A stretch of 64,000 nucleotides of DNA from Candidatus Borrarchaeum weybense (GTDB lineage Archaea; Asgardarchaeota; Sifarchaeia; Borrarchaeales; Borrarchaeaceae). Made by a program: the position numbers and the translations under genes. Positions 24,538 through 50,892 of this stretch are shown here, piece by piece. Within the stretch, counting starts at the first letter, position 1. Each line of letters opens with the position of its first letter. The stretch is taken from NCBI GenBank assembly GCA_019057385.1, contig JAHQJS010000007.1, positions 1-64,000 of the forward strand. Direction: 5' to 3'. The notes under the pieces are model-generated. The model did no database searches and had not been told where the DNA came from. It saw only the letters and a list, made by a program, of their open reading frames with translations.

Positions 24538-26100
24538 ATGACTATTCCAAACGAAAGTAAGGAAGAAAAACTTAAGGAAAAAACAGAAACCGAAGAAGAA
24601 CTGAAAGTTCCTATTCTAGAGGAAAGTTATCCTTTAATTCCTCCTTTTGCTTACGCACAAATTAAGACCGACCCTAAAACTCGCCGAACTATATATCATG
24701 TTATTGAGGTGCCCTTGAAGAAAAAAGAGAGCACTGTTGTTAATATTATCAAACAGAAAATGATTGAAAATATTGATGTCATTTTCGGAACATTAGAAGA
24801 AGACAACGAAAAAATGGAATATCTCCGAGAAAAAATAGAGGCCATTTGGAAAAAAGAAAAAATTGACATAGATTATGATGAAAGTTTTGACAAAGTGTTG
24901 TACTATGTTTCACGAGATTTTATTGGTTTTGGCAGACTTGAACCGCTTCTAAGAGATCAGACGATTGAGGATATTAGTTGTGATGGCGTTGAAATCCCTA
25001 TCTACATTTGGCATCGAAAATATGAATCGATTCCAACAAACCTCATATTCAGAAACGAGGAAGAACTTAATGGCACAATCACTAAAATAGCTCAAAGATC
25101 TGGTCGCCATATTTCCATTGCAAACCCTATACTTGATGCTAGTCTTCCTGACGGATCAAGAGTTCAGTTAACTTATGGAAAAGAAGTTACTCAAAGAGGT
25201 TCAACGTTTACTATTAGAAAGTTTCGACTCGATCCTCTAACGATTACTGATTTACTCCAGTTTAATACACTGAACACGGAGATGGCAGCTTACTTATGGT
25301 ATTTGATCGAGAATCGTCACTCCGCTCTCATCGCAGGTGGGATCGCCTCAGGAAAGACAACGCTTCTAAATACCCTATCTATGTTTATCAGGCCGGGTTT
25401 AAAAATTGTTACTATAGAAGACACAGCTGAACTGAACATTCCGCACGAGAACGTTATTCCCAGCATCGCACGGACTGGATTGGGCTTAGAGGAAGAAGGT
25501 CGCAAACGAGGCTCTGTTACATTATTCGACCTATTAAAAGCATCTCTTAGACAAAGACCTGATTATATCATTGTAGGAGAAATAAGAGGCGCGGAAGCAT
25601 ATTTTCTCTTCCAAGCAATGGCTACAGGACACTTAGGTATGGCCACTATTCATGGAGATTCGGTGTCTTCCGTAATTCATAGACTTGAATCAAAACCTAT
25701 GAATATTCCACGAACAATGTTGACGTCTCTCGATACGGTGTGTGTCCAACGAAAGGTGCGTTATGGCGGAGTTCACATTCGAAGGAGCATTGATATTCAA
25801 GAAATGGTTGGCATGGATGCTGTAACTAACGAACTCCTGACAAACAAGGTGTACACTTGGAATGCAAAAAATGATAGCTTTGATTATCTTGGCAGATCTG
25901 TAAAGTTAGAACAAATAGCGGAACATTCTGGTATGACTTTAGATGATCTTTGGCATGAAATCGACAAACGGAAGGTTGTACTTGGTTATATGTTGAAAAA
26001 GGGAATTAGGTACTATCAGGATGTAGCTTCAACTATCCGTGGATTCTATAATAACCCCGATCGTATGTATCGGAAAGCTAAACGCGGAATGGGAATGTAA
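24538..26100 (+). CDS. Secretion-type ATPase (GspE/PilT/FlaI superfamily), orphan
   Basis: A 520-residue protein. The N-terminal part is charged and lacks a signal. The ATPase core has the Walker A motif GGIASGKTTLLN near residue 266, an Asp box in IVTIEDTAELNIPHENVIPS, a Walker B-like stretch YIIVGEIRGAEA and the His box TGHLGMATIHGD. This is the layout of archaeal type IV pilus/archaellum ATPases. The membrane platform protein (FlaJ/TadC) that such ATPases need and any pilin genes are absent; the flanking genes are unrelated. It may power a pilus encoded elsewhere. Confidence 0.88.
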   Translation: MTIPNESKEEKLKEKTETEEELKVPILEESYPLIPPFAYAQIKTDPKTRRTIYHVIEVPLKKKESTVVNIIKQKMIENIDVIFGTLEEDNEKMEYLREKIEAIWKKEKIDIDYDESFDKVLYYVSRDFIGFGRLEPLLRDQTIEDISCDGVEIPIYIWHRKYESIPTNLIFRNEEELNGTITKIAQRSGRHISIANPILDASLPDGSRVQLTYGKEVTQRGSTFTIRKFRLDPLTITDLLQFNTLNTEMAAYLWYLIENRHSALIAGGIASGKTTLLNTLSMFIRPGLKIVTIEDTAELNIPHENVIPSIARTGLGLEEEGRKRGSVTLFDLLKASLRQRPDYIIVGEIRGAEAYFLFQAMATGHLGMATIHGDSVSSVIHRLESKPMNIPRTMLTSLDTVCVQRKVRYGGVHIRRSIDIQEMVGMDAVTNELLTNKVYTWNAKNDSFDYLGRSVKLEQIAEHSGMTLDDLWHEIDKRKVVLGYMLKKGIRYYQDVASTIRGFYNNPDRMYRKAKRGMGM

Positions 26101-30801: not shown

Positions 30802-33800
30802 TCACCCCGCTTGAGTTGATCGCCCCGCTCGATGGCGCTCGAGGGCAGGAATATTCAATTCGATACCCTTTGGAACAAATTGATCCATTTGATGCGCTAA
30901 ATACCCTTGTTCATCTGGCCATTCAACTAATAACGTTTCAATGAGGTGTTTTACCCAGTTCTCATTGCATTCTTCTTTTTCAGTAACGACTACGAGCAGA
31001 TTTTGCACTATTGTTTCTCCTTGACTGCCTGTATCTTCTGCTGACACTGTTACCAGTCTAACATAGATGTTCTCACTGGGTTCTTCCAATTTGAACTGGT
31101 CTCTGGTTACTGCCATAGTGTAAAAACTTGTAAGCTTTGTCGGATCCATTATCACACTGCTAAATTCTGTTTGCTCATTGAATACACGAAACTCCTTTAT
31201 TATTGGCCCCATAATGATATCGAACTCAACCAAGAAAATGGCCTTTACGCCAAATTCGGTGGGGTCCACCATTTCAGATACTAAGAAACCTGGCCGCTGG
31301 TATGCTAAACCTAAATCTACCATCTGTGTGACACCTTCAATTTCACTATCTGATTGCAGTTCAGATAATGATGATAGGGGATCGGGTTGAGGAGTACGAA
31401 TAAAGAAGTAGTACATTAGTCCACTGATAGCGCCACATACACCAATTACCGTCACAATACTGAACAATAGTGACATGTCTGAAAGACTTGCTATCAAAGG
31501 CAGATTTAATCCTCCTTGTTGCGCCACTGTAGCCTGGATTTCAATTTCTACTGATTCTTTGATATCGCTTCTGTAAAATATAATACGTATTAGATAATCA
31601 CCATTATCAAATTCTTTCATTGAGAATGTGGCTACACCATATTCATCTGTCTGTATCGTTGTGTAATAGTCACTTTGAGAGAAACTTTGTAATAGCTCTG
31701 AATTTGCATTAACGTTGTTCTCACCGTAACCGTCGATATAAAGATCAACGGAAGTGTTCGACAGCGCTGTACCATCTGTATATTGGAATACAATGGTTAT
31801 AGTGCTATCAGGATTTTCCTGAACATCAATATTTAAGCGTTCACCGACCCTTACCGTTTTTTCAATGGTTTCGACTATAGCATCGGGGATAGAATCAATT
31901 TTGATCTTTAGTTCGTATTCACCCACTTCGTCTGGTGTTATGCTTGTTTGGATAGAGCCATCTTCATCTGTTTTTTCGCTTATCAGCAATACGCCATCGA
32001 AATAAACCCAGACTTTAATTTGAATTGGTTCACCATCGTAGTCCTTAATGGTGACTCTAATATCTAGTGTATCTCCAAGTTCGATTCCAGTATCCACATC
32101 TACGTCAATTTCAGGCGTGTATTTTACCTTCAAAGTTTCAGTCTTTGTCTTATCGTCTGTTACAATCTTAATCTTTTGACTACCTAGTTCATCTTGAACT
32201 CTCAAATTGAGTTCAACTTCGCCATCAATATCTGTTGTATCTTCATCTTGTAATTCCCAGTTTCCATCGATCTCAGCATAGAGTTTTACGTTTATATTGA
32301 CTTGTGGTTCGCCATCATTTGATATTTTCACCTTTACTGTGTGATCTTTACCTTTTTCAACGGTTAAATCGTTTAAGATCTCGATTATAGTTCCCTGTGG
32401 TTCTTCTGGTTCATCTAAAATAGTAGTGCCGTGTTCCACTATGCTTATTCTGACAACACCTTGTCCGTCGTCTTTAGTGGCAACAATCTTGATAATACCT
32501 GCACCAATTTGTGCGTCAGAAGGAATGACGCAGTTTATTGTGACATCACCCGCTTGGATACCAGTTAGTGTAATTCCTTCACCGATCAGCACATCATTAA
32601 GGTACACTTGAACTACAGCATTACCAACACCAAAAAGGGGATTGTCTTTGTCTTTAACTTGGATATAAAGATCAACAACCTCGTTTTGACTATAGGAGTC
32701 ATCTATGTTTGCAATGATATCCATATCGTCTACATACACAGACAATTGAACCGTATCCGAAACACAGTTATGATAATACAGAAACCCTTCAAAGTCTGCA
32801 TAGACCGTTTGCACTTCACTTAATTCGTAGTTAAAGGTAAACTGTAATTCCGCGATCCCCTGAGCATTAGTAATTGTTGATCCTACGATGGTGTCATTAA
32901 GATAGAACACAACAGATTGTCCTGAGATTGGATTTCCTGCCTCATCAAGCAAAGTGGTCTTGAATTTTACAGTATCGCCCTGTGTTACCGATGTTATAGG
33001 ATTGTCCTGTGTATCTGTTACTTCTATGGTTAACGAAGGATTAGAATATACCGTGACGGTTTGTGTGTCAGTATTGGGATCATAGAACCCACTTCCAGAA
33101 AATTCTGCTCGTACACTAACATCTCCAAGTAGATCATTAGTGATTGTCCAATCATAGGTTGCAAATCCGGAACTATTGGTCAATGAACTACCTAGTAATT
33201 GGCTATTAATATAGAAGTATATGGTATAACCTTCTAATGGTAAACCTGCATCGGTTAGCTCTGCAACTAATGTTACCACATCACCCCTATCTCCTTTGGT
33301 TGGTGTGCTTAGTGATAGGGAAGGAGTGGTATAGACCTCTAAATTAGTTGTTCCTGATTGACTAGCATAATAGTAACCAGATCCTGCGAATTCGGCATAG
33401 AACACATGAGTTCCTAATTGATCAGCCGTCCAAATGAACTCACCCATACCAGACGCATCGGTTGTAACAGTAGTCAAGATTGAACCGTTCAAGTAAATCA
33501 CAACGTCGTATCCTACCATTGCGCCATTTTCATCGGTCAATGTCACCGTTATGGTAACGGTATCGCCCTTATCTACGGTTGAATCTGATAACTGAATACT
33601 GACAGAAGTATTTGAATAGACCGTTGTAAAGACATCATTTGAAATATAACCAAAGGCAGGACATTCAACATGAAGAGTCTGCACGCCAAGTAAATCATTT
33701 GTTATTGTCCAGTCGTATGTGGCGAATCCTGAACTGTCTGTCATTGAACTTCCTAAGAGTGTTCCGTTTAGATAGAAGAATATTTCCTCTCCTTCGATGC

Positions 33801-35760
33801 CAATACCAAATGAGTCGGTTAGGGTCGCACTTAGTGTAAGCAGGTCTCCACGATCAGCTGTTTCAGGTGCGTCTATATAGAATGTTTGAACCTCTATTTG
33901 TTCCACTTGTGTAATAGCAGCATGATAATATCCCGTCTCATTGAATTGAGCATAGACGTTATACAAATTCGCACTGCCTGGAATCCATGTATATTCAGCT
34001 ATTCCAGTACTATTTGTTACAGCAGTCCCTAGTGGTACATCGTCTAGATAAAACTCGATTGTATACCCTTCTAATGGTAAACCACTTTCATCGGTCAAGA
34101 TTGCCTGAATTAGTACATTTTCACCAATCCGAGCATGGGGCTGCAATGTCAAATCTAATGAAGGATTAGAATAAACATCAAGGTCTTCCGTGTTAGAAGT
34201 GCTGGAATGATAATATCCGCTTGCGATGAACTCTGCACGAATTTGTTGTTGTCCTAGCATCGAATTATCGACCAGCCACTGAAATGTGGCCACTCCACTG
34301 GAATTTGTAACCTCAGAGCCAAGCAATGTCGTACCAGCATAGAATAGAACTGTGTAGCCATCCAAACCATTCAATAGATTATCGGTCAATGTAGCGATTA
34401 TCTCTACTGTATCTCCTCTGTCAGCTTCCATTACTTGAAGCTCGATGTGAAGATCTGTATTTGCATAGACTTCAAGTATATTCTGTGATTCGGTAAATCT
34501 AATGTACTGGGATATATTGACCAATCGAACTATTAGGTCGTGAGGTCCCACAGGTGAATCGACAGGAATACCGTAAATAAGTTCTACGTAGCCAGTTCCA
34601 TCAGTAACTCCACTATCAACTACCTGATCAATAGTTGCATCATATAATTCAACCGTATAATCTGACAAACTATTTCCTAATCCATCAGTTAGTGTAATAC
34701 TTACTGTGATTGATTCTTCTCTCGTAACCATCGAAGAACTTAACGTTGCATCAATTGTGACATTCATGTACACTTCCAGAGTGTCTGATTCCTCTGAAAA
34801 ATTGATGTCCCCTTCATAAACAGTAGCATTTATCGTATGCTCACCGTATACCGCATCTAGTGGAACAGTGTAGTCGTAAGAAGCGAGCCCTTGGTCATCT
34901 GTAATTGCTGTGCCTAGTAAGGTGTTATTATCATAGAATTTTACTTCTGTGCCAATTTCAGGTGTTGATGTAATAGAATCTGTGACCGTTGCATTTATTG
35001 TTACAGTTTCTCCTCTATTGATTTCTGTAGCAGATAGTTCTAAATCTATAGTGTACGGATTAACAAACTCAACAGTTGCATGGTCTACAAGCACTTCACC
35101 ACTTAAAGGAACTATTACAGTTGCATTAATCATATGAACTCCAACAGGACGGCTTTGGGTGATTTGCCAATCGTAAATTGCAATACCATCATTATCAGTA
35201 GATATCGACTGAATCCAATAATTCTCAGTGGGTGTTTCATCATAAAAATCAACAATTACGTCAGGGAAAGGATTACTTTCGTTATCAAGTACCGTAGCTT
35301 TAAGTTCCACTGTTGATCCTTTAAGTTGTCTATCAGGCGTTATTTCTAATGTAATTTCTAATTGATTTCCAAGAACTTGAATTGTTGTGGTGTCATTGTA
35401 TTCTGGAGATCCTGATAATTCAGCTCTAATGACATGACTACCCAAGGTAGCATCTGAAGGAATTGTATAATCATATATAGCGTATCCTTGATCATCTAAG
35501 ATCGCTGTACCAATATAAATATCATCATCATAAAAGTCAACAGGTTCGTTGATATATGGAATAGAGAATTCATCAGTTACTATCGCAGTTAGCTCACAGC
35601 TCTGATCTCTTTGTAATACTGATGGATTTGCCTCTAATGTTACGTTATATGTTTCAGCTCTAGCATTATCACCGTTTATTGCGACAAATATCATTATTAC
35701 TGCCAAAAAAAGGATTATGAATAGCCTCGTCTTTTTACTCCGTAATTTCTCAAATATCAT
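30802..35760 (-). CDS. Giant surface protein: about 14 Ig-like repeats, one membrane span, longin-like cytoplasmic domain
   Basis: A protein of about 1653 residues. A signal/anchor helix sits at residues 13-31 (LFIILFLAVIMIFVAIN). Then come about 14 tandem repeats of 90-100 residues with the pattern DRGD.V.L.A.LTD, GYT..FY.., LLGS..TNSSG.A and a final VYSNPSL, an Ig-like fold like invasin/Big-type domains. A single membrane helix is near residues 1430-1455. The last 190 residues are cytoplasmic; AIFLVEFDIIMGPIIKEFRV near residue 1507 fits a longin-type strand-helix start, as in GTPase-linked proteins. It could sense or bind outside and signal inside. The frame opens at GTG 35778; the ATG at 35760 gives a cleaner signal. 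Confidence 0.8.
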   Translation of the reverse strand: MIFEKLRSKKTRLFIILFLAVIMIFVAINGDNARAETYNVTLEANPSVLQRDQSCELTAIVTDEFSIPYINEPVDFYDDDIYIGTAILDDQGYAIYDYTIPSDATLGSHVIRAELSGSPEYNDTTTIQVLGNQLEITLEITPDRQLKGSTVELKATVLDNESNPFPDVIVDFYDETPTENYWIQSISTDNDGIAIYDWQITQSRPVGVHMINATVIVPLSGEVLVDHATVEFVNPYTIDLELSATEINRGETVTINATVTDSITSTPEIGTEVKFYDNNTLLGTAITDDQGLASYDYTVPLDAVYGEHTINATVYEGDINFSEESDTLEVYMNVTIDATLSSSMVTREESITVSITLTDGLGNSLSDYTVELYDATIDQVVDSGVTDGTGYVELIYGIPVDSPVGPHDLIVRLVNISQYIRFTESQNILEVYANTDLHIELQVMEADRGDTVEIIATLTDNLLNGLDGYTVLFYAGTTLLGSEVTNSSGVATFQWLVDNSMLGQQQIRAEFIASGYYHSSTSNTEDLDVYSNPSLDLTLQPHARIGENVLIQAILTDESGLPLEGYTIEFYLDDVPLGTAVTNSTGIAEYTWIPGSANLYNVYAQFNETGYYHAAITQVEQIEVQTFYIDAPETADRGDLLTLSATLTDSFGIGIEGEEIFFYLNGTLLGSSMTDSSGFATYDWTITNDLLGVQTLHVECPAFGYISNDVFTTVYSNTSVSIQLSDSTVDKGDTVTITVTLTDENGAMVGYDVVIYLNGSILTTVTTDASGMGEFIWTADQLGTHVFYAEFAGSGYYYASQSGTTNLEVYTTPSLSLSTPTKGDRGDVVTLVAELTDAGLPLEGYTIYFYINSQLLGSSLTNSSGFATYDWTITNDLLGDVSVRAEFSGSGFYDPNTDTQTVTVYSNPSLTIEVTDTQDNPITSVTQGDTVKFKTTLLDEAGNPISGQSVVFYLNDTIVGSTITNAQGIAELQFTFNYELSEVQTVYADFEGFLYYHNCVSDTVQLSVYVDDMDIIANIDDSYSQNEVVDLYIQVKDKDNPLFGVGNAVVQVYLNDVLIGEGITLTGIQAGDVTINCVIPSDAQIGAGIIKIVATKDDGQGVVRISIVEHGTTILDEPEEPQGTIIEILNDLTVEKGKDHTVKVKISNDGEPQVNINVKLYAEIDGNWELQDEDTTDIDGEVELNLRVQDELGSQKIKIVTDDKTKTETLKVKYTPEIDVDVDTGIELGDTLDIRVTIKDYDGEPIQIKVWVYFDGVLLISEKTDEDGSIQTSITPDEVGEYELKIKIDSIPDAIVETIEKTVRVGERLNIDVQENPDSTITIVFQYTDGTALSNTSVDLYIDGYGENNVNANSELLQSFSQSDYYTTIQTDEYGVATFSMKEFDNGDYLIRIIFYRSDIKESVEIEIQATVAQQGGLNLPLIASLSDMSLLFSIVTVIGVCGAISGLMYYFFIRTPQPDPLSSLSELQSDSEIEGVTQMVDLGLAYQRPGFLVSEMVDPTEFGVKAIFLVEFDIIMGPIIKEFRVFNEQTEFSSVIMDPTKLTSFYTMAVTRDQFKLEEPSENIYVRLVTVSAEDTGSQGETIVQNLLVVVTEKEECNENWVKHLIETLLVEWPDEQGYLAHQMDQFVPKGIELNIPALERHRAGRSTQAG

Positions 35761-35996
35761 TTGTGCTGCACCAATCACCCATTTTATTTTAATTTTTTTT
35801 CAAATAAAGACTCTCAATTAAAATAAACGAAACCTGCTTTATAAAGAAATAAACCTCCTTTTTAAACAAAGTCTAGCCTTAATAACTCAGAGAATTTAGA
35901 TGAATAGTTTTGTAACTTTGATGAACTAATTGAATTAATTTATGCACATTAGGTGTTTGCTCGGCATTTCAATAGAGGGGAACAGAGGTTAAGGTT

Positions 35997-37592
35997 TTGA
36001 AAAACGCACTTCCTGTAAACTACATTTCCCATCCCTTGCTTACAGAAAACTGTATTGAGAGTCGAATCTATCAACAGAAAATACTAGCCAGAGCAATTCA
36101 TAACAACACTATCATTGTACTTCCTGCCGGAATGGGGAAGACCATAATAGCTACTCTGATTATAGCCTACCATTTGAACAAGAACGTTGGGAAGAATGGA
36201 ACAATCAATACTCAGTGCATTTTTTTAACTCCAACGAAACCGTTAGTTCTCAAATACATTGTCATGCTGCAAGAAAAATTGACGATCCCTGAGCATATCA
36301 ATTACATTATTGGAAATATTTCAAATGATAAAAGAGCCAAGTTATTTAAGAAGTCTAAAATTGTAGTAATGACGCCCAATGTGTTATATACTGATATAAT
36401 TAACGATCGCTACGATTTTGGGAACGTTTCGCTTATTGTTTTTGATGAATGTCATCGTGCTGCTGGGAAACATGCTTACGTTAAAGTTGCAGATCAATAT
36501 TTTCTACAAAAGAGTAAAGGAAGAGTATTAGGAATAACAACTTCTTTAGGGAATAAAAGAATAACAGAAGAAGTCTGTCGCAATCTGCGAATCACATCAG
36601 TAGATAGTAGAACAACAAGCGATTACGATATATCCTCATATGTTTCTCAAAAAAGAATTGAATGGCACATGATCCCTCTTCCAAAATTGTTCCAGGACAT
36701 CAGAACAGTACTCGAAAAGCAACTATATAGATTCATAGAGGGTTTAGCAAAAAAGAGTGTTAATGTTCCAGACGATCCTAGAAAGATCACCTTAAAGCAG
36801 TTAGTTGAGTTACAAGGTGAGTATCAGAATAAACTCTCATCAATACCCTTAAGAACTAAATTATCAGCGAATTTGAAGCTTTTAATTGCACAAATAGCAT
36901 CCTGTATTCGCTTATTCCATTTGATTGAAAGAATTGAGACTCAGGGGCTCAGCTCAGCAAAACACTTCATAGAAAAAATAAAGGAAAAAGCACTCCAAGA
37001 CAAAAAGGGATATACAAAAAGGGAGATGTTACGACGATTTTATCGTTTAAAATCTATTAAAACAGTTGAAAAAATGCTTGAAGAGGGATTAAGAGAGGGT
37101 TATGAGCATCCTAAGATCATTGAAACGGTCGAGATAGTTAAAAAACAAATAACCGAAAAGCCCGATTCTAGGATTCTTATATTTGCAAATTATAGAGCGT
37201 CAATTAATATCATTGTTGACGAACTTAATAAGATGAATTTAGAAGCAAAGAAAGTCTGTGCAGCTGGTCTTGTCGGGCATAAGCATAAAGGAACAATTGG
37301 TGGTCTATCATCAAAACAGCAAATGACGTTACTTAAACACTTTAAAGAGGGTATCATTAATGTGCTTGTTGCTACGAGCGTGGCTGAACAAGGGCTAGAT
37401 ATAATAGACTCTGATCTCGTTTTATTTTACGATTGTGTGCCGGATCAAATCAGGGCTCACCAAAGACGGAACAGAACAGTTAAACAAAGGCTTGGTAATG
37501 TGATTATTCTAATTACAAAAGGTACTGCTGATGAAAGATATTATTGGGTTGTTAGAGAGGCTGAAAAGAGACAAAAAAGTGATACAAACTAA
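35997..37592 (+). CDS. Hef/FANCM-like helicase without nuclease domain
   Basis: A 531-residue superfamily 2 helicase. It starts with TTG after an AGAGGTT stretch. Motif I is VLPAGMGKT near residue 42, motif II DECH near residue 149, motif III TTS, and the helical insertion typical of Hef/FANCM lies between the two RecA-like domains. The end carries VIILITKGTADERYYW, the usual Hef helicase ending. The Q-box normally reading QRxGRTGR is QRRNRTVKQR here. The XPF-type nuclease half found in euryarchaeal Hef is missing; a stop follows directly. The role may be stalled-fork remodelling. It is convergent with the next operon. Confidence 0.82.
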   Translation: MKNALPVNYISHPLLTENCIESRIYQQKILARAIHNNTIIVLPAGMGKTIIATLIIAYHLNKNVGKNGTINTQCIFLTPTKPLVLKYIVMLQEKLTIPEHINYIIGNISNDKRAKLFKKSKIVVMTPNVLYTDIINDRYDFGNVSLIVFDECHRAAGKHAYVKVADQYFLQKSKGRVLGITTSLGNKRITEEVCRNLRITSVDSRTTSDYDISSYVSQKRIEWHMIPLPKLFQDIRTVLEKQLYRFIEGLAKKSVNVPDDPRKITLKQLVELQGEYQNKLSSIPLRTKLSANLKLLIAQIASCIRLFHLIERIETQGLSSAKHFIEKIKEKALQDKKGYTKREMLRRFYRLKSIKTVEKMLEEGLREGYEHPKIIETVEIVKKQITEKPDSRILIFANYRASINIIVDELNKMNLEAKKVCAAGLVGHKHKGTIGGLSSKQQMTLLKHFKEGIINVLVATSVAEQGLDIIDSDLVLFYDCVPDQIRAHQRRNRTVKQRLGNVIILITKGTADERYYWVVREAEKRQKSDTN

Positions 37593-37609: not shown

Positions 37610-38803
37610 TTAAGAAGTTTCTTCTCTTATTCTGAGTGTTTTTATCTTCCCAGAGTCATTTGCATCAACATAAGATAATACTTGAACTTTTGTTTCCTTA
37701 GCAAAACTTCGTTTGTACTTCAAAGTAAAGAACAAGAATGATGGAACGAAGATCAAGAGAGCTACCACTAAACTGAATGAAAGAATGTTCGGTATATCTA
37801 CTGTTGAGATTTCACTATTGCCTTCATTGTTAAAATTGCTATTAGAGAATGAAATCTTTGAATTATCACCGATTTTAAGGACAAAGGTATAGGGTGTTTC
37901 TCCTCCATTTCCAGCAACTCGATATGAATTTATGAGTATTTGAAATCGAATTGAGTTTCTTCCAGCGTTAAGAGTAGTTGGTGTTACTTGTATTTTACCT
38001 TCTTCAAATATCTTTTCTTCTTCGTATAATGCTTTATCATTAACATAGACATTGTACGTCACTTCACAATCGCTAGGAACATCTTTGTGAAACATGACGT
38101 CAAGTTGTGTATTAACCGAAGTCAAATTCCTTTGTAAGAAGAATTCTACTTGAGGTTCAAACTTACAGCTATAAAATCCACCGATAGCGCCTGTGCCCAC
38201 TATCTTATCTTCATAATTGTTACTAGGTAACACTACCAAATCGTTTAATGAATAGTCTCCTGTAGATTTTATGACATTTATTCCGGTGATTTCAAAATAG
38301 GATTCCCCAAAGAGCGTGAACGTAGAGATTGCAGTAGAGAGTGATTTAAACGAAATGGTAATAGTTATTGCATTCGTTCCGTCTTTCATATATTCATAGG
38401 GAATTTCAATATGCCGCCACTGTTTGGTGCCACGTTCGATGAATCTAAAAATCGAACTTTTTACGACATGGTCATCGTTAACGGTAACTGCTATGTCAAA
38501 ATCACTAGAAGGACGACTTCCGCCTGCCAGATAATTCAAATGGAGAGAATAGCGGTTGTGAGAATTATCATCTATGTCTACATTGAATTCTATGGTTTCT
38601 TCGCATTCATTTCCATTCTCTGAACTAAAGACTCGTGTATTAATTCCTAAAGAATTAAACGTGAGCATGTCAGAGTCACTTTGCGCTTCAATAGCAATCG
38701 CATTTGATACAAAAAGCGATGTAATAACGGTCAAGAAAAGTAAAATAAACAAAACGATCAGGAATTTTGATCGAATAGACCTTTTGGCTAAGTAAACCCT
38801 CAT
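37610..38803 (-). CDS. Membrane-anchored extracellular protein, last gene of the envelope operon
   Basis: A 397-residue protein with an N-terminal hydrophobic helix (FLIVLFILLFLTVITSLFVS, residues 14-33), a beta-rich extracellular region of about 300 residues, and a second helix near residue 345-365 (FSLVVALLIFVPSFLFF) followed by a basic tail. Two Cys in ECEE and YSCKF regions could pair outside. Motifs such as EIPYEYMKDGTNAITITISF suggest jelly-roll or galactose-binding-like folds. The ATG overlaps the stop of the upstream nuclease-like gene by four bases, so they are co-translated. No function can be named. Confidence 0.65.
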   Translation of the reverse strand: MRVYLAKRSIRSKFLIVLFILLFLTVITSLFVSNAIAIEAQSDSDMLTFNSLGINTRVFSSENGNECEETIEFNVDIDDNSHNRYSLHLNYLAGGSRPSSDFDIAVTVNDDHVVKSSIFRFIERGTKQWRHIEIPYEYMKDGTNAITITISFKSLSTAISTFTLFGESYFEITGINVIKSTGDYSLNDLVVLPSNNYEDKIVGTGAIGGFYSCKFEPQVEFFLQRNLTSVNTQLDVMFHKDVPSDCEVTYNVYVNDKALYEEEKIFEEGKIQVTPTTLNAGRNSIRFQILINSYRVAGNGGETPYTFVLKIGDNSKISFSNSNFNNEGNSEISTVDIPNILSFSLVVALLIFVPSFLFFTLKYKRSFAKETKVQVLSYVDANDSGKIKTLRIREETS

Positions 38804-39675
38804 AATACCACCACAACTGGAGTTATATCAAGACTAACTCCTAATCTTTTCAGAGAATCTTCTAGACTCTTGGTTATGCTGTAGATTTCAATAGGTTCCT
38901 TTGATGAAAGTGAAATTTTATCCATGTGTCTCTTTATTGGCAGCCACCTTGGACGTGATTTTAGCGTTTGGCTGTACTTTTTCAGTGAATCATATAACTC
39001 ATCGATTGAGGTGTCAATAGACGGCAGTTCACGCAGCATTTGTGCATATCTTGCCTTTAATGCGAATACTAGTGCCAGTTTCCCCTCTTTATAAAACTCA
39101 GAATCTAGTCCACCACCTTCTAGTAAACTACAAGCTTTATCCCAATGCTTTCTGCTTTTTTCGTACATGAATTTGTAGAACTCAATCAATTCTATCCTAA
39201 TTTCCTTTTGTATTCTCTTCTCAGATAATCTCATAAGTTCGTCTTTCATATTCTCTGGAAGCTTTCTTGTAGCTGGACCTACCAAAGTTTTTACAGCCTT
39301 TCTTGATACGCTTAAAAGTCCGATCCCGCTATCTATTGATCGCCTCAGTTCAGCAGTGAAAAAACGAACTATATGTTCTTTTTTAAGAGAAGAGGCTGGA
39401 AATGCTAAGTATGTAATGTTTGATATTTCCCTAAACACTTCTGGATGTTCGACAAAAGGCTCATTTTCAACCTCTATTGCCACTATGTTCGAAAATGGAT
39501 CTATGAGTAACAAATCAGGTCTTCTTTGTTTTAGGTATCCAGGAAAAGTTATTGTAGTGTCATCTTCAGTTATTTGCAGTTCCAACAGTACTTTATAACC
39601 CCGATTCGTAAAATGTTTCTTTAATACTTCTGCAACTTCTCTTTCATTCAATTTTTTACCCTCTAATTCACACAT
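38800..39675 (-). CDS. PD-(D/E)xK-like protein with altered catalytic lysine
   Basis: A protein of about 291 residues; the open frame begins at 39708, but the ATG at 39675 overlaps the stop of the preceding gene by eight bases and gives the more usual start. The N-terminal domain has RRPDLLLID, then IVAIEVENEP, the spacing of a PD-(D/E)xK restriction-type fold. In the 302-residue numbering the Asp is D65 and the (D/E)xK triad reads E79-V-E81, so the Lys is replaced by Glu. The C-terminal two thirds are helical (KSRKHWDKACSLLEGGG). Activity is doubtful; a DNA-binding or structural role in the operon is possible. Confidence 0.6.
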   Translation of the reverse strand: MCELEGKKLNEREVAEVLKKHFTNRGYKVLLELQITEDDTTITFPGYLKQRRPDLLLIDPFSNIVAIEVENEPFVEHPEVFREISNITYLAFPASSLKKEHIVRFFTAELRRSIDSGIGLLSVSRKAVKTLVGPATRKLPENMKDELMRLSEKRIQKEIRIELIEFYKFMYEKSRKHWDKACSLLEGGGLDSEFYKEGKLALVFALKARYAQMLRELPSIDTSIDELYDSLKKYSQTLKSRPRWLPIKRHMDKISLSSKEPIEIYSITKSLEDSLKRLGVSLDITPVVVVL

Positions 39676-42600
39676 TTTCTGTAAAACCACATCTTTGCAG
39701 AAATCCATCAGATTCCCTTAACAGTCCTCTATTTATCATTGCATTGATTGCCCTTTCAATTCCAAGATTATCATAAGTATGAGCTGACTTAAGTATGAGT
39801 TGGTTTTTTATTACAGATTTAAGACCACCTTCTCGCCCTATTATATCCCAAATATCTTTTAAGAGTCCATTCAATTTCAAATCATCATGAAAACTAATAT
39901 TATTAACTGGTAACGCTTCAACAACGTTTTCTGATGGAAAAATATTGTCTATAAAATTCTCTGCAGAATCAATTTGTTCTCTTTTGATATTCTTAATTTC
40001 TTGTTCTTCAAATGATTCTTCTGAAGAATTATTCAACAGTTGTTTAATTACGCGTATACGGTCTCTAACCTTAAGTTTGAATTTCTCTAATTCAGCTATG
40101 ATAAGTTCAGTATCCCCAATTATTGAGTCGATATCTGCTTGTTCGAGCATAATTCCTTTAACTATTGCCAGTTTATGTTTCTGGATAACGTTTTGCAGGC
40201 CTGAATAGTCAATAGGAAGAACTATTTCACAAGTAATTAAGGCTCGTACAATTTGATCTAATTCTATTTTTGCATCTGTATCAATCTCAAGTAATCGTAG
40301 GAGCGCTATCTTTATTGCATCATAACAAAAGACTATTGAAGACGTTGCTGCTTGAGGATAATTGTTCCTTAATTCATGTGCCTGTCTTAATAGGTTTCTT
40401 GCATCATTTGGGGAAGCCTTTTCTTCTATTGATTTAAGATAGCCTTCAATTCCAGGTTGATCATCGATTAATGGTGTATTTGGAAGCACAGGTTTTTCAA
40501 TCTCAATATTTTTGTCAGAAATATTATTATTGCCTGTAAAGGATTCATTAGCATCAATCGATTGCTGTATCTTTAGAGTTTTCTTCATTTCATACTCTTC
40601 AATGGCTTGAAGCCCTTTTGGACTTATACTGATAGTTGTAAGAGGTTTAAATGAATCTCTCGGAGTATATTCTTTCCGAAAAACATATCGTTGCTTGATC
40701 AAATTTATTGTTGCCTTAGCAAGTTGTTTTTCATCAGTAGTATCATGTAACATTTCTGAAAGTGCAGAATACATTACACCCCGATCGCCCATATCTCTTA
40801 ATGTATGCAAGATATTGTAATACAGATCAATTTCACTATCGAAATCTTTTTCTAGAACTGTTTGCTTTAATTTTCCATTATTCCATATCGGTGACATTGG
40901 AACTGACTTAGTTTTTTGATCATCATCCCTCTCAGTAGAACTAGTATATGTTTGCACGTCCTCTACTTTCAGAGGAACATACTGTGCTGCTTCTCCTTTT
41001 TTCTGCAAGAATAATATGGCGTGATTACTCTTCATTGTTCTCAAATACGTCTCCTGAAGGGGATTCGGAGACCGAGAATCGATACCTCTTTCTTTCAAAC
41101 CTAGTGTGTCACTTACTAATTGTATATCTGTGGCTGTGGTGACGCGTCCTATAATCTTGGTACGAGGAAGGTTAAATAAATAAGGAGTTTCACTTGGCGA
41201 TTCCATAGAGACAATAAGTGAGGTATTTCGCAAACTTTCCAAAGCAAAGAATTTCTCTACTCTCGACCTATAACGATAAGAAACGAGATAAGAGGCCTCA
41301 GGAAAGATCATATCGGAATTTTCTATGATTAATACGGTGTTTTGAGAAGCTGAAGGGTTATATCTTCGGTAAGTGTGTATCGAGTGAATCAGAAGTTGAA
41401 GGAGGAATGATAGGAAATTCCTATCGCTAAAGTCTGATAGATCGATAACGGTTAAACCTTCAGTGTTGAACAGCATGTGAAATGGATGTGAAGTTGTAGA
41501 ACCAATGGCAGCGATTCTTTTTCGATCTGATAAAATTCTTTCCAACACATCTTTTAACTCTTCAAGTGCAGGAGTACCAAATTCGATGAATTCTTCATCC
41601 TCTGAAAACTCTAAATTTTCTAATAACTCAATTAAAGTAGGAGGATCATTCTCACCATTATTCATTTTTGATTCATAGAGTTCTTTTAATTTCTTGGTCA
41701 CAAATTGCCAGCGACTGAGATCTCCCTTGCCATAAATTTTCTGTAATATTGTTAGAAAGCCATCAATGAAGTCCCCTATGTTTCCACCCATTCGATCAAG
41801 TGGATTGAAACAAAAATCAGTTCCTAATTTTAATGAGTGTGCAGGAAGATCAAAATAATTTGGTTCATTTCTTTTTGCTCTTTCTGAATATTGTGGATCG
41901 ATTAAAATCACATTATGTTGTCTTTTACACAACTCGTGGATTATACGTCTTATTGTAGTAATCCGATCTACTCCATAGACACCTATGTTAGTTTTCAAAT
42001 GCTGTATATCAAAACCTACCTCACGAGTTGTAACGGTATCTGATGTCGTATCAACCGCGTATCCCAAGAAGATGGTATTCTCTGTCTTTGCGGGAATTGC
42101 GAATTGCGCTGGTTGATATCTCTTTGCGACACCAGAAACGACCTCGAAGAATCCTTGGCTTTGTCTCTTTGAAAAGTAACAGCTATCTGCTTCTAAGGGT
42201 CTTTTGAAGACTCCTACTTTGATCTCCGAATCTTTTTGTGATTGGTCTAGTTTCACAGTTTCAATTGAATACGAGGAATAGAGTTGGGATAAGAGATATT
42301 CAAAACTTAACGAGATCTTCGTTGGATTTGAGGGAATAAACTTCAGAGTTGGAAATGCATTCTTAATAGAAACTTTCAATTGTTGATTTACTTCATCAAA
42401 TTTAGCTAAGATATCATTAAGTTTCTCTTGTCCATCGTACACAAACGGCTGAGTTACTACGAAATATGGTGTAATTGCGAAATATGGCTCGGGATTGTAA
42501 TGCATTCTTCTGCCGTCCAAAATTTCTTCATCAACTAATTCAACATTTGTGTTAGCTATGCGACCTTTCGCATGAACAAATGACCTTAAATTCGATCTGT

Positions 42601-43921
42601 TTATGGAAAGTGTCCTGAATAGTTTTTGCAAGCCATCGGTTTTTGTTATAGGACTTTCTTGAGAATATGAGCTGCTGCTAACCGTTCGGGGTATTCCTTC
42701 ACCAATTTGATGAATTGCTAGTGCGTGGACTATGTTCCCTCTTTTTTGGATAAAGGCATAATTTCCGCTTATCCAGACGTTTTCAAAAACAGGGACAATT
42801 CTTTTGAGTCTTACAGTAGCACTAGGTTCATTTTTATTGCTTAATTCTTTTACTAGAGTCCAAATCGCAAGTAATATCACTGCTATTACCAGAAACGCTA
42901 AATAATTCTGGAATTGCATAGCCATAGCTGCCAGTAAGAATGGTGTGACATTAAGATCGCCTTCTGTCATGTCATAATAATACAAATCATTAGTTCGTGC
43001 AATAGTTCCGTATCTATTTCTGAGTTGCTTAGGTAAGAAAAACGCCCTAACAGATTGTATTTCGACTTTATTGTATTCTAATTCTGTCTCAATATCTTTC
43101 TTTTTTGCAGTAAGTGCCGTGATTTCAGATTGTGATTCAAAGTCTACAAGAGCTCCGAATAAATGACTTATCAGTGCTTTATCGATAAGCTGCCGTATTT
43201 CGCAACCTGGAAACTCTGTGATGAATGCATCATAAACTAGTAGAAAATCTTCCAACAATTCAGCAATCAAGACATTTGCAGCGGCAGGAAATGTAGAGGT
43301 GATTGGCCTTTCTTTTATTACTCGAATGTAGGCATGATCTAGATCAGTTACATATGAAATTGAGAATGTTTTTCCAACCATATGATCAAGTAAGGCGGTT
43401 ATGTTATCTTGCGTATGACTTTGTATATGTGTGAATCTTTCGATTTTAAATGCCATAATACCGCATATCCATTCTGGAAGAGAATTAGGGTTTTTAGTGA
43501 CGAGCATAACAGTCTCTTCCTTTCCCTTTAAGTCTAGAAAAACTTCAAAGAACTCTAATTCATTGAAAGTGTCGATAATGAAGAGACTCTCATCATTCAT
43601 CAAGTCGGGAATTTGTAGTTGAATATTTCCATTCCCCACTCTATTCTTTTCTTTGTGATTGACTGATTGGAGGATATTTGTGGATTCGATATTATAGGAT
43701 GGAATCTTAGTTGTTCGATTTGCTCGTTCATTTTTTATTTGGTTTCTTGCCCTTTTTCTGATGCCAAGAAATGCGATACAGAATAATTCAATGACAGCAA
43801 CCAGGAGGAAAATACTAAATGAACTTAATAAGAAGAAGAAAAGAACCGGAGCTGCCATCATTATGCCTGTGATGAGTATAACTTCGATTTTTTTTCCCCT
43901 TAAGTCGTTGATCATCTTCAT
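39668..43921 (-). CDS. Giant membrane HerA/VirB4-like protein with degenerate Walker motifs
   Basis: A 1417-residue protein. Two helices near residues 12-52, one near 325-350, then a large region, and near residue 640 the start of an ATPase core. There HLKTNIGVYGVDRITTIRR replaces the HerA pattern H....G.TGSGKT: Gly, Lys and Ser of Walker A became Asp, Arg and Ile. VILIDPQYSE follows as in HerA/VirB4. The Walker B position reads VLIIENSDMIFPE near residue 860, where Asp-Glu became Glu-Asn. After the core come a winged helix (about 1025-1100), a HEPN-like helical bundle (about 1170-1280) and a last winged helix (about 1355-1410). It overlaps the nuclease-like gene. ATP hydrolysis is unlikely. 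Confidence 0.7.
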   Translation of the reverse strand: MKMINDLRGKKIEVILITGIMMAAPVLFFFLLSSFSIFLLVAVIELFCIAFLGIRKRARNQIKNERANRTTKIPSYNIESTNILQSVNHKEKNRVGNGNIQLQIPDLMNDESLFIIDTFNELEFFEVFLDLKGKEETVMLVTKNPNSLPEWICGIMAFKIERFTHIQSHTQDNITALLDHMVGKTFSISYVTDLDHAYIRVIKERPITSTFPAAANVLIAELLEDFLLVYDAFITEFPGCEIRQLIDKALISHLFGALVDFESQSEITALTAKKKDIETELEYNKVEIQSVRAFFLPKQLRNRYGTIARTNDLYYYDMTEGDLNVTPFLLAAMAMQFQNYLAFLVIAVILLAIWTLVKELSNKNEPSATVRLKRIVPVFENVWISGNYAFIQKRGNIVHALAIHQIGEGIPRTVSSSSYSQESPITKTDGLQKLFRTLSINRSNLRSFVHAKGRIANTNVELVDEEILDGRRMHYNPEPYFAITPYFVVTQPFVYDGQEKLNDILAKFDEVNQQLKVSIKNAFPTLKFIPSNPTKISLSFEYLLSQLYSSYSIETVKLDQSQKDSEIKVGVFKRPLEADSCYFSKRQSQGFFEVVSGVAKRYQPAQFAIPAKTENTIFLGYAVDTTSDTVTTREVGFDIQHLKTNIGVYGVDRITTIRRIIHELCKRQHNVILIDPQYSERAKRNEPNYFDLPAHSLKLGTDFCFNPLDRMGGNIGDFIDGFLTILQKIYGKGDLSRWQFVTKKLKELYESKMNNGENDPPTLIELLENLEFSEDEEFIEFGTPALEELKDVLERILSDRKRIAAIGSTTSHPFHMLFNTEGLTVIDLSDFSDRNFLSFLLQLLIHSIHTYRRYNPSASQNTVLIIENSDMIFPEASYLVSYRYRSRVEKFFALESLRNTSLIVSMESPSETPYLFNLPRTKIIGRVTTATDIQLVSDTLGLKERGIDSRSPNPLQETYLRTMKSNHAILFLQKKGEAAQYVPLKVEDVQTYTSSTERDDDQKTKSVPMSPIWNNGKLKQTVLEKDFDSEIDLYYNILHTLRDMGDRGVMYSALSEMLHDTTDEKQLAKATINLIKQRYVFRKEYTPRDSFKPLTTISISPKGLQAIEEYEMKKTLKIQQSIDANESFTGNNNISDKNIEIEKPVLPNTPLIDDQPGIEGYLKSIEEKASPNDARNLLRQAHELRNNYPQAATSSIVFCYDAIKIALLRLLEIDTDAKIELDQIVRALITCEIVLPIDYSGLQNVIQKHKLAIVKGIMLEQADIDSIIGDTELIIAELEKFKLKVRDRIRVIKQLLNNSSEESFEEQEIKNIKREQIDSAENFIDNIFPSENVVEALPVNNISFHDDLKLNGLLKDIWDIIGREGGLKSVIKNQLILKSAHTYDNLGIERAINAMINRGLLRESDGFLQRCGFTENV

Positions 43922-43937
43922 TCACTTTTTCATATTT

Positions 43938-44948
43938 TCATAATATAAAGAACAGGATAATGAATCCAATTCCAATGAAGGAACAGATTAGCAATATTAA
44001 CAGTTTAAGTCCAGTTATAACTAACCTTTTCGCGGTAAAACGGTTTTTAGAAACAATCGGCTGTTCTTCAGCATTTTTAAGTGGAGAATACCATTGACGT
44101 CCATGCTTTAGCTTCCACAGATACACAGTATTAAGCCAAGCATTATCAGCAATTTGCTTACTTTTTCCAGAGACTTTTCTGAAGTTGAAATGTGCAATGA
44201 CTAACACAATGCTCAAGGTTATGAAAGCAATGCTTACAAGGAATCCAAAGGTACCAGGGCTAAAAGGTGTATAGGTGACTATGGCTGATGCAATTGAAGG
44301 ATAATTCCAGAGTTGCGTGCCAAACAGAATAACAAAGACTATTCCGCAAGCGCCAGCAAATCCTAATAGGAGGGAACCTATATGTCGCGTCAACAGGGCG
44401 TTATAGATTGAAATGAGATCTTCATCGTCAGGAAGCAAATGCCACGCTAAGCTACAGTGCACCCAAAAATATACAAGTTTAAATTGAGATAGACCAGTTG
44501 CATCAACTATAGTTGAAAAGAGGACGAAAGTTACTCCCATTAGTAAAATAATGAAAGGAAAGGGCATCAATACTACTGTTGTAGTACGCCTTAAATTAAG
44601 GAACATAGAAGATGCTTGTACGTCTTCTTTTGTTACGTTACTCTTTGATATTGTTTGTTTTTGATATGTTGCCGGAACTAAATAACCCGCAGCATATGAA
44701 TAATTAGGATGTGCACGATACACCATACGGAAATCTTGACTAACTAAATAACCACCTATAATATGGCCGGTGTAATGAGCGACATTTCCAATGAATGTAA
44801 GGATATCAAGGACCCGTTTACCGATACGTCCTAAAATTGGCACGATCCAGTATGCAACTCTGACTAGCCACCCAAAAGCCATAGCTATAATTGTCATTGC
44901 CATTAGAAACGGGATTTGCTCGCTCGGTATTAACATCGAATGTCTCAC
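43938..44948 (-). CDS. Polytopic membrane protein, M50-metalloprotease-like with HYxxH
   Basis: A 336-residue protein with about six hydrophobic helices. Residues 55-66 read NVAHYTGHIIGG, so His58 and His62 keep the spacing of the HExxH motif of intramembrane M50 proteases, but Tyr59 replaces Glu. Near residues 166-177 SLAWHLLPDDED resembles the third-ligand segment (often S-x-A-x-HA-x-PS-x-x-D) I recall from archaeal M50-like proteins. Without the Glu, proteolysis is unlikely. The gene lies 16 bases before the HerA-like gene, with which it is surely co-expressed. The family link is by pattern only and needs a profile search. Confidence 0.55.
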   Translation of the reverse strand: MRHSMLIPSEQIPFLMAMTIIAMAFGWLVRVAYWIVPILGRIGKRVLDILTFIGNVAHYTGHIIGGYLVSQDFRMVYRAHPNYSYAAGYLVPATYQKQTISKSNVTKEDVQASSMFLNLRRTTTVVLMPFPFIILLMGVTFVLFSTIVDATGLSQFKLVYFWVHCSLAWHLLPDDEDLISIYNALLTRHIGSLLLGFAGACGIVFVILFGTQLWNYPSIASAIVTYTPFSPGTFGFLVSIAFITLSIVLVIAHFNFRKVSGKSKQIADNAWLNTVYLWKLKHGRQWYSPLKNAEEQPIVSKNRFTAKRLVITGLKLLILLICSFIGIGFIILFFIL

Positions 44949-44969
44949 AACTTTGTTCTTATAAACTAT

Positions 44970-45398
44970 TTAACGATGTTGAAATCTGTCTTTGTCCTCA
45001 ACATTACCTATCTGTTTTTTAAACGAGAGGATCAGTACTCCAATCAATATAGAGCACATCTCTTTACGACTGATTCTATATTTTTGCTTGAAGTGGGAAA
45101 TAAGTTCTATTAATGAAATTCGTAGTAATTCGAAGGTTTTATGAGTGAGAACATAAGGGTACAGGATGGAGTCCCATTCGATATTTCCGTAAACCAGTTT
45201 GCTACCCGTTGAATCAGACAACTCTTCTAAACTTTTTCTTTTTTCTTTTCCATCAAGATCAATTTTCATTTGGTCTAATATGTGTTGAAGGTCATATGGC
45301 GTCACAAGGCCAACTTTTTGAAGAATTGCTTGCAATGCCGAACGTATAGCCAGGTTAAAATCATCTAAACTCGCAACTTTCAAGTTTCTGGACTCCAT
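44970..45398 (-). CDS. Small helical protein, first gene of the envelope operon
   Basis: A 142-residue soluble protein, mostly helical: AIRSALQAILQKVGLVTPYD, LQHILDQMKIDLDG, then HKTFELLRISLIELISHF. It has no membrane helix and no recognised family. It begins the operon and lies 21 bases before the membrane-protease-like gene, so it probably belongs to the same machine. It might be an adaptor or regulator; that is inference. Confidence 0.55.
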   Translation of the reverse strand: MESRNLKVASLDDFNLAIRSALQAILQKVGLVTPYDLQHILDQMKIDLDGKEKRKSLEELSDSTGSKLVYGNIEWDSILYPYVLTHKTFELLRISLIELISHFKQKYRISRKEMCSILIGVLILSFKKQIGNVEDKDRFQHR

Positions 45399-45600: not shown

Positions 45601-46158
45601 TTAGATTTCCTTTAGGTTGATCATCTTTGAGAATTGACTTACTAAGTTGTTAAATTCCTCGTGGGCAAGTTCTAACGAATCGTCAAATTTTGTAGAAATA
45701 TCTGAGAACGATACAGTACCTGCAAGTGCTGGGCTCTCTGCCAATGTTTTATTAGCTGCCTCTGCATTCGCTTTCAATTGCTGCAATTCAAGTTCAGTCC
45801 TTCGGGAATTTAAAATCTGTGCGTATTTTAGTGCTATTCGTAAGAATACATAAGTCTCATCTATTATCGTTGGGACATACTCCCTTGAATCTCTAAGAGA
45901 TGCACCTTCTTTTTTTAGCAAACCTGCATCAAATAACTTTTTAGCATGCAAGGCAATTTGTGCACTATTTTTCTCGCCTAATTCCGTAGCTAGATCCTTC
46001 AAACGAGTGATATCCTCAGCTATTGTCGTTTTCAGAATATCGAGTCTTTTCTCGTTAGCTAGCACACTGAATAGGCTAGTCAAAATTCGAACATCATCAT
46101 CAGAAAAGTTTGATATGCTTATTCCTGTTGGTTGCGATTTCTTACCTTTTTTAGGCAT
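45601..46158 (-). CDS. ArsR-like winged-helix regulator with coiled-coil tail
   Basis: A 185-residue protein. The N-terminus is Lys-rich (PKKGKKSQP). Residues 22-85 form a winged helix: FSVLANEKRLDILKTTIAED, LKDLATELGEKNSAQIALHA and KKLFDAGLLKKEG. The rest is helical with Glu- and Gln-rich heptads, suitable for dimerisation. It lies about 200 bases upstream of the envelope operon in the same direction and is divergent from the TFB-like gene, so it may control either. There are no metal-binding Cys as in classic ArsR. Confidence 0.75.
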   Translation of the reverse strand: MPKKGKKSQPTGISISNFSDDDVRILTSLFSVLANEKRLDILKTTIAEDITRLKDLATELGEKNSAQIALHAKKLFDAGLLKKEGASLRDSREYVPTIIDETYVFLRIALKYAQILNSRRTELELQQLKANAEAANKTLAESPALAGTVSFSDISTKFDDSLELAHEEFNNLVSQFSKMINLKEI

Positions 46159-50062: not shown

Positions 50063-50190
50063 AGCATGGATTTTCATAATTCAATAACATAATGAATTAT
50101 ATTCACCGCTACTCAAGATTTAGATGAGTATAGGTCTTCACTTCTTTTTAAGCAAATTTTATCTCAATATATTAAGGATTGAGAAGTGGA

Positions 50191-50892
50191 ATGGACCAAA
50201 AACCTATTCTTCCAACGGCAGCGCTACCTATCGATAGATTATTAGAGGGTGGTTTGCATACTGGTGAAGTTACAACGGTTTTCGGAGAAGCGGCAACTGG
50301 AAAATCAACACTGGCGTATCAGAGTCTTATTAATGTAGCGAAGATGGAACACTCTACCATTTATATTGATACAGAACATAAGTTTAATACTCGAAGAATA
50401 GCTCAAATTGATGATAAAACTGATGTTTCAGATTTTATTGCACTATTCCAACCAGAGACTTTCACTCAACAGATACAATATCTAAAAAATCTGAAGGCTC
50501 TATTAAATGAAAGACCGTTTAAACTTCTAATTATAGACACAATTTCTAATTTGTACCGCTTAGAATCATGTTCCATAGAGAAAAGCATAGCTCTAAGAAG
50601 ATTACTGGAACAACATCTGGCCCGAATATACTGTGAGACGCGCCGATATAGTTTATTTACTCTTATTCTCAGTCAAGTAAGAAGTTTTAAAGGCAAGACT
50701 ACCCCCATAGGAGAAGATTGTCTTTATGCATACTCTAGAAAATTAGTAGAATTAAGGAAAGGATTGATTAACAATAAACGATTTGCGATTCTAAGAAAAG
50801 GAAGAAGTAATATGATTGATGAGAGCTTACCATATGTTATAACAGAAAAAGGATTTAGTTCAATAAATGAAATAAGGCTTTTGTCTTTTTAA
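50191..50892 (+). CDS. radB: RadB-like RecA-superfamily ATPase
   Basis: A protein of about 233 residues. Its Walker A is GEAATGKSTLAYQS near residue 30, preceded by PIDRLLEGGLHTGEVTTVFG as in RadA/RadB/KaiC-type proteins. Walker B is LLIIDTISNLYRLE near residue 115. The length and absence of the N-terminal HhH domain of RadA fit RadB, the archaeal recombination mediator. TTG at 50179 would add four residues; the ATG at 50191 is preferred. Confidence 0.85.
   Translation: MDQKPILPTAALPIDRLLEGGLHTGEVTTVFGEAATGKSTLAYQSLINVAKMEHSTIYIDTEHKFNTRRIAQIDDKTDVSDFIALFQPETFTQQIQYLKNLKALLNERPFKLLIIDTISNLYRLESCSIEKSIALRRLLEQHLARIYCETRRYSLFTLILSQVRSFKGKTTPIGEDCLYAYSRKLVELRKGLINNKRFAILRKGRSNMIDESLPYVITEKGFSSINEIRLLSF

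Follow-up and report, generated by a model that had tools for sequence, protein, structure and literature searches.

A putative membrane-anchored HerA-like family without a Walker A motif, encoded in envelope operons of Asgard archaea

A five-gene operon in Candidatus Borrarchaeum weybense

The stretch of DNA studied here (the window) comprises the first 64 kb of contig JAHQJS010000007.1, designated C7, in the 4.18-Mb genome of Candidatus Borrarchaeum weybense. An earlier note had drawn attention to five tightly packed genes on the minus strand of the window, at 37610-45398, among them a large HerA/VirB4-like gene, and had interpreted them as a structural or sensing machine across the membrane. 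All five open reading frames were confirmed, their starts and stops were checked, and the tight packing was borne out by the coordinates, the spacing and the synteny in a relative. The operon begins with an open reading frame for a small helical protein of 142 amino acids (aa; 44970-45398), followed by the genes for a polytopic membrane protein of 336 aa with a GTG start that resembles a degenerate M50 protease (43938-44948), a membrane-anchored HerA-like pseudo-ATPase of 1417 aa (39668-43921), referred to below as pseudo-HerA, a nuclease-like protein with the motif RPD...E-x-E-N, referred to as the ExE protein (38800-39708), and a surface protein of 397 aa (37610-38803). The ExE protein has 302 aa when counted from its first ATG (39708), the likely start being the ATG at 39675, which gives 291 aa. 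The first two junctions are gaps of 21 and 16 bases, the third is an overlap of 8 bases with the ExE start at 39675 and of 41 bases with that at 39708, and the fourth is an overlap of 4 bases.

All five genes recur in unchanged order in the nearest named relative, Candidatus Borrarchaeum yapensis, with identities of 67-95%. The ratios of nonsynonymous to synonymous substitution rates (dN/dS) between the two species are, in operon order, 0.14, 0.10, 0.12, 0.19 and 0.17, hence all five genes are under purifying selection and are not decaying. The 142-aa protein has no match in Pfam or NCBIfam; its counterpart in B. yapensis is 94% identical and keeps its position in the gene order. The surface protein possesses a signal or anchor sequence, a beta-sandwich, a carbohydrate-binding-module-like (CBM-like) domain (PF14683, E 2.1e-6, above the curated cut-off) and a C-terminal transmembrane helix.

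A HerA-like family without the Walker A motif

The 1417-aa protein has an N-terminal transmembrane anchor, a winged-helix segment after the ATPase-like domain, an extended C-terminal helical region and a conserved NPLD motif. The earlier claim that both of its Walker motifs are changed held up: GVYG-VDRITT stands at the position of Walker A, and LIIENSD at that of Walker B. No Pfam or NCBIfam model reaches its cut-off on this protein. The profile of its family matches HerA structures in the PDB (best 8xau, E 9e-11), which makes the kinship with HerA firm, and several family members show DUF87/HerA_C and winged helix-turn-helix (wHTH) matches. Winged-helix segments occur in most of the family.

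In a first search, 85 of 228 Asgard genomes had matches. In a broader search, a profile of 19 members was run against 393 relatives (the 228 Asgard genomes and about 165 other archaea) at a threshold of E <= 1e-30, and pseudo-HerA was found in at least 17 of the 29 Asgard family codes (f1, f2, f3, f4, f5, f7, f10, f13, f14, f15, f17, f18, f20, f21, f22, f25 and f28; the window belongs to f1), in a sample with many incomplete genomes and unevenly represented families. Full-length matches were confined to Asgard archaea among the relatives searched. The motif GxxxxGK[ST] is absent from every member with an alignable Walker A region, and most members carry a GG-x-x-x-[ED/x]-R (GGxxxxR-type) loop in its place, whereas conservation is good for a GxxxNPLD-type motif. 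Intact motifs, e.g. GSTGSGKS and GQTGSGKT, are present in Asgard paralogues and in the top-scoring matches outside Asgard archaea that were examined (G368, G242, G263). Intact copies also occur within the Borrarchaeum genome, namely two HerA-like proteins with a membrane anchor (GLIGSGKT) and a canonical HerA, whose motif is likewise complete.

When a tree was calculated after removal of the Walker A columns, a single branch set all 58 proteins without the motif apart from the intact paralogues, with a support of 90 in the Shimodaira-Hasegawa-like approximate likelihood ratio test, and families f28, f21 together with f10, f15 and f13 group together; the tree has several long branches, and the search profile was itself made from motif-less members. 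This topology fits a single, ancient loss of Walker A followed by mostly vertical descent. Searches for close relatives returned none of the window protein in viral contigs and none of an f28 member in plasmids, thus there is no sign of a mobile origin. Judged by sequence, the 1417-aa protein is a member of an undescribed, presumably membrane-anchored HerA-like family from which Walker A has been lost family-wide; the change in Borrarchaeum is therefore not local decay. For this main gene, the operon thus withstood the refuting check set out in the earlier note.

The two other proteins that the earlier note described as having lost a catalytic residue gave a more mixed picture. The polytopic protein has HYTGH in place of HExxH and retains a P-x-x-x-D motif. 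Aligned with hhalign to the M50-like partners of f2, f21 and f25 (probability 93%, E 2.9e-7), it places HYTGH opposite HELSH and PDDED opposite PSFVD. These partners have an intact HExxH, and those of f25 and f2 match the Pfam M50 family (PF02163) at 1e-4 to 4e-4, below the curated cut-off. Genome G179 (family f2) contains an intact (HELSH) and a degenerate (HHWSR) copy side by side, the second histidine also being gone in the latter. By these alignments, the motif loss is real in Borrarchaeum and is not universal in the system. The f21 genome G158 has, next to an intact M50-like protein and a giant form of pseudo-HerA, a HerA/VirB4-like ATPase with intact motifs (L066 5489-8395; GMPKTGKT, LDEAH); the two HerA-like proteins are possibly an active/inactive pair.

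The ExE protein of the window carries RPD..IEVEN. Its family is small (f1, f2 and f7), with R-x-D-L and E-x-E-N invariant; E-x-E-N occurs in six of six members, none of which has the lysine of ExK, and the orthologues in f2 and f7 adjoin pseudo-HerA. The assignment to the PD-(D/E)xK fold is based on the motif and on a NERD match with E 0.03, profile searches with the family gave no PDB or Pfam match, and AlphaFold2 with two-sequence alignments gave a predicted local distance difference test score of 43 for the nuclease-like and polytopic proteins. An intact ExK nuclease-like gene of G167 (L011) was ruled out as a homologue (hhalign probability 0.9%). Since active nucleases with ExE exist, such as BamHI with its Asp-Glu-x-Glu, the motif alone is not evidence of inactivity. 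The ExE signature was thus correctly described and is conserved, whereas loss of catalysis and the fold itself are not proven. Consequently, the idea that three neighbouring genes have each lost the key residue finds no support in this form: the M50-like partners are intact elsewhere, and ExE does not prove inactivity.

Partners of pseudo-HerA in other Asgard families

From one Asgard family to the next, the HerA-like gene is accompanied by similar kinds of partners. Compared with the window order (142-aa protein, degenerate M50-like protein, pseudo-HerA, ExE protein, surface protein), the operon of G179, from the sister family f2 of the same class, encodes the two M50-like proteins (HELSH, then HHWSR), pseudo-HerA, the ExE protein, a 92-aa protein, RadA (Rad51 domain, E 6e-76) and XPD (DEAD_2, HBB and Helicase_C_2 domains). 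The f7 operon runs from the ExE protein through pseudo-HerA, a superfamily 2 helicase and a RecA-like protein to a surface protein of 1739 aa. Family f28 has a nearly invariant operon of about 15 genes, in which proteins of ~250 and ~155 aa, a RadA-like protein, a zinc-ribbon protein, a ~205-aa protein, an XPD-like protein, a membrane protein of ~200 aa and a ~96-aa protein precede pseudo-HerA, and a Ski2-like SWIM helicase, a membrane protein of ~530 aa, a RecA-like protein, a membrane protein of ~320 aa, a second RecA-like protein and a FEN1/XPG-like protein (PF00867, E 4e-18) follow it. Shorter versions, often with pseudo-HerA split into two genes, occur in f4, f5, f13, f15 and f18, and the giant forms of f21 and f10 are accompanied by a membrane protein with an HhH domain (PF14520, E 9e-11).

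The operon RadA and XPD are additional paralogues, and the presence of other copies elsewhere in the same genomes marks the operon copies as dedicated. The RadAs of the f7, f15 and f28 operons group together, apart from others (support 86/90). The XPD of f28 forms a long branch of its own, and XPD may thus have joined the system on more than one occasion. The catalytic motifs of the partners are largely intact, one RecA-like copy in f28 being degenerate. The operons thus combine pseudo-HerA with genes for membrane and surface proteins, to which many lineages other than f21 add dedicated enzymes of DNA processing. The link to DNA, which the earlier note had seen in winged helices and a nuclease-like fold, is supported far more strongly by these dedicated RadA, XPD, Ski2-like and FEN1-like genes.

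Large anchored surface proteins recur in the operons. Their domains vary by lineage, with a prenyltransferase-type alpha-alpha toroid in f4 and an M28 peptidase in f13 and f15 (L015 15282-18527, L010 11911-14961, L060 4290-6938). In f13, a protein encoded downstream of pseudo-HerA has a helical N-terminus and a phospholipase-D-like motif (L010 7875-8810). Unexpected neighbours were seen in the f4 genome G002 (L015 4626-8728), where two NifD-like genes and one for a NifH/BchL-like ATPase directly follow pseudo-HerA.

The window also contains an XPD paralogue on the plus strand (62854-64000, continuing beyond the window end), about 18 kb from the operon. In the tree it pairs with the XPD of the G179 operon as its orthologue (100/100 support), and the other XPD of the genome, on contig C4, falls elsewhere in the tree. 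Two other candidates for partners within the window were not supported. A short RadA/RecA-like ATPase with an intact Walker A (50179-50892, plus strand) is at best a doubtful candidate for the RadA of the module, the full-length RadA orthologues lying at C7:360493 and C5:107475; these two highly similar full-length genes span C7:360493-361413 and C5:107475-108395. The Ski2-like helicase at 59394-62348 is likewise not supported as that of the module, the orthologue of the module helicase being at C7:401804. Directly upstream of the operon, on the same strand, an ArsR-like winged-helix protein of 185 aa (45601-46158), with 91% identity and the order kept in B. yapensis, is a possible regulator. 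On the other side, the operon adjoins a DEAD/Hef-like helicase (35997-37592) of 531 aa at full length, the counterpart of which in B. yapensis (L001 16334-16888) is a fragment of 185 aa. Further along, a giant surface protein with immunoglobulin-like repeats and a cytosolic tail (30802-35778) measures 1658 aa here against about 1054 aa in B. yapensis, which shows that the repeat number varies, and a 520-aa protein (24538-26100) matches both ends of a 1064-aa B. yapensis protein, indicating a large internal insertion or deletion.

Possible function of the system

In its parts, the system matches no known kind. The Ced and Ted systems for DNA import use membrane HerA/VirB4-like proteins, and Ted loci carry recombination genes (PMC9905601), while CedB and CedD are paired membrane HerA-like paralogues (PMC11868833). 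The Asgard operons resemble them in encoding a membrane HerA/VirB4-like protein with polytopic membrane proteins, in their linked recombination genes and in their paralogous HerA-like pairs. In contrast to Ced and Ted, the Asgard HerA-like protein has no Walker A, i.e. the operon contains no active ATPase of the CedB/TedB type, the RadA, XPD, Ski2-like, FEN1-like, M50-like and nuclease-like partners are additional, and the system is restricted to Asgard archaea among the genomes searched. DNA damage induces the Ced and Ups genes. The HerA-NurA end-resection complex shares the ATPase superfamily and the recombination context, but it consists of a soluble, active HerA with NurA, whereas the protein described here is membrane-anchored and motif-less; no NurA annotation was seen among the operon neighbours examined. 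The type IV secretion ATPases VirB4 and VirD4 are similar as membrane-associated proteins of the HerA-FtsK clan in multi-protein envelope operons; however, the ATP site is lost in the Asgard protein and no other type IV secretion component was recognised. The polytopic protein shares its fold, HxxxH and the P-x-x-x-D region with M50/site-2-type metalloproteases, from which the Borrarchaeum protein differs by the missing catalytic glutamate.

From these comparisons, we consider that the operon may be the Borrarchaeum version of an Asgard-wide membrane machine for DNA transfer or processing, in which separate helicases would be the motors and the dead HerA ring a passive pore or scaffold; we give this reading a probability of roughly 40%. 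In such a mechanism, pseudo-HerA, as a ring or scaffold on the inner membrane face, would hold or guide DNA without pumping it, and the polytopic partner would form or support the passage through the membrane. Contact with the outside, be it the envelope, a glycan or a partner cell, would fall to the surface protein. The strand would be trimmed and pulled by the nuclease-like protein together with the helicases and received by the RadA paralogue, which would load it for recombination. Helicases, or else a HerA paralogue that is intact, would then supply the motion in place of the HerA ring, giving a machine akin to DNA uptake or exchange that would be Ced/Ted-like in task and not in parts. Several observations weigh against this reading. 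The RadA, XPD and helicase genes of the window sit outside the operon, the Ski2-like orthologue is distant from it in the Borrarchaeum genome, and the operons of f21 with the giant form are mostly without the helicase and RadA set. Neither a VirB6/CedA-like channel nor a VirB2/CedA1-like pilin was identified, the small membrane proteins giving no Pfam match; the window operon has no pilin-like gene, and the small proteins with two to three membrane helices in f4, f5 and f18 are without a Pfam match. The resemblance to Ced noted earlier thus extends to a membrane HerA-like protein with a polytopic partner, but not to a Ced-type channel or pilin. In addition, the passage of DNA across the membrane and its direction, as well as DNA binding and ring formation by pseudo-HerA, are steps that we infer.

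The strongest rival, which we regard as rather unlikely, is a membrane-tethered complex for recombination and repair or chromosome anchoring, in which DNA stays inside and pseudo-HerA is an anchor or platform for the RadA, XPD, Ski2-like and FEN1-like enzymes on the chromosome, for instance at replication forks or division sites. The partner set does resemble a repair toolkit, the distribution is mostly vertical and chromosome-borne, and FtsK, a relative in the HerA superfamily, acts at the division site. Such a complex has, however, little place for surface proteins (CBM-like, M28 peptidase and toroid domains) and M50-like membrane proteins, and separate housekeeping RadA and XPD exist; because surface proteins recur, we favour DNA exchange, if by little, over internal repair or anchoring. 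If the replacement loop could still bind nucleotide, pseudo-HerA would be a divergent and not a dead motor. The GGxxxxR-type loop is conserved in many families, and acidic Walker B residues are kept in several (L015 LLLDEC, L014 IILDEP), yet the P-loop position has no lysine, no P-loop NTPase working with such a loop is known to us, and Walker B is lost too in Borrarchaeum and f21, making this explanation improbable.

Defence against viruses and plasmids, by a membrane-posted HerA/FtsK-type complex that catches incoming DNA and passes it to helicases and nucleases, seems unlikely. Capture systems of this kind, including BRC and DndFGH, pair HerA-like proteins with nucleases and wHTH proteins (PMC12839542), and the Asgard operons share with them the HerA-like protein with winged helices and the nuclease-like and FEN1-like partners. 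The known systems, however, rely on an active, cytosolic translocase and have a different partner set, RadA and XPD would be atypical, and inheritance here is mostly vertical with a fixed gene order instead of patchy. PADLOC returned only generic helicase-family matches for the five window proteins and the f28 pseudo-HerA, none of them system-specific. Still less probable is trans-membrane sensing or proteolysis, with the M50-like and anchored proteins signalling to a DNA-binding pseudo-HerA. M50 proteins do work in regulated intramembrane proteolysis, winged helices are present and a histidine kinase adjoins the operon in one f28 locus, but the M50-like protein is degenerate in Borrarchaeum and absent from the operons of most other families, and signalling needs no helicases, RadA or FEN1-like proteins. 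Of the dedicated machine proposed in the earlier note, the conserved, Asgard-wide system therefore stands, while the sensing function finds no specific support. Local pseudogenisation or a chance neighbourhood is already refuted by the dN/dS of 0.10-0.19, the synteny and the changes common to distant families.

No description of such an Asgard gene system, and no DNA-exchange machinery of Asgard archaea, was found in the open-access literature, which leaves many subscription papers and all preprints outside. The persistence of a motor family throughout the phylum after the loss of its ATP site, under purifying selection where measured, is unusual for HerA/FtsK-type proteins. If the system turns out to import DNA, it would count as a HerA/VirB4-type DNA transfer system of highly divergent form. 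An ancestral Asgard machine for DNA exchange across the membrane, with an ATPase-less HerA ring as pore or scaffold, dedicated helicases moving DNA and a dedicated RadA loading it, is a doubtful proposal at present. Should it be true, the archaeal relatives of eukaryotes would exchange and recombine DNA by a route of their own. The system is spread across the Asgard phylum, and no closer relatives of eukaryotes are known. The dedicated RadA, XPD and FEN1-like paralogues give concrete predictions, testable in cultured Asgard archaea.
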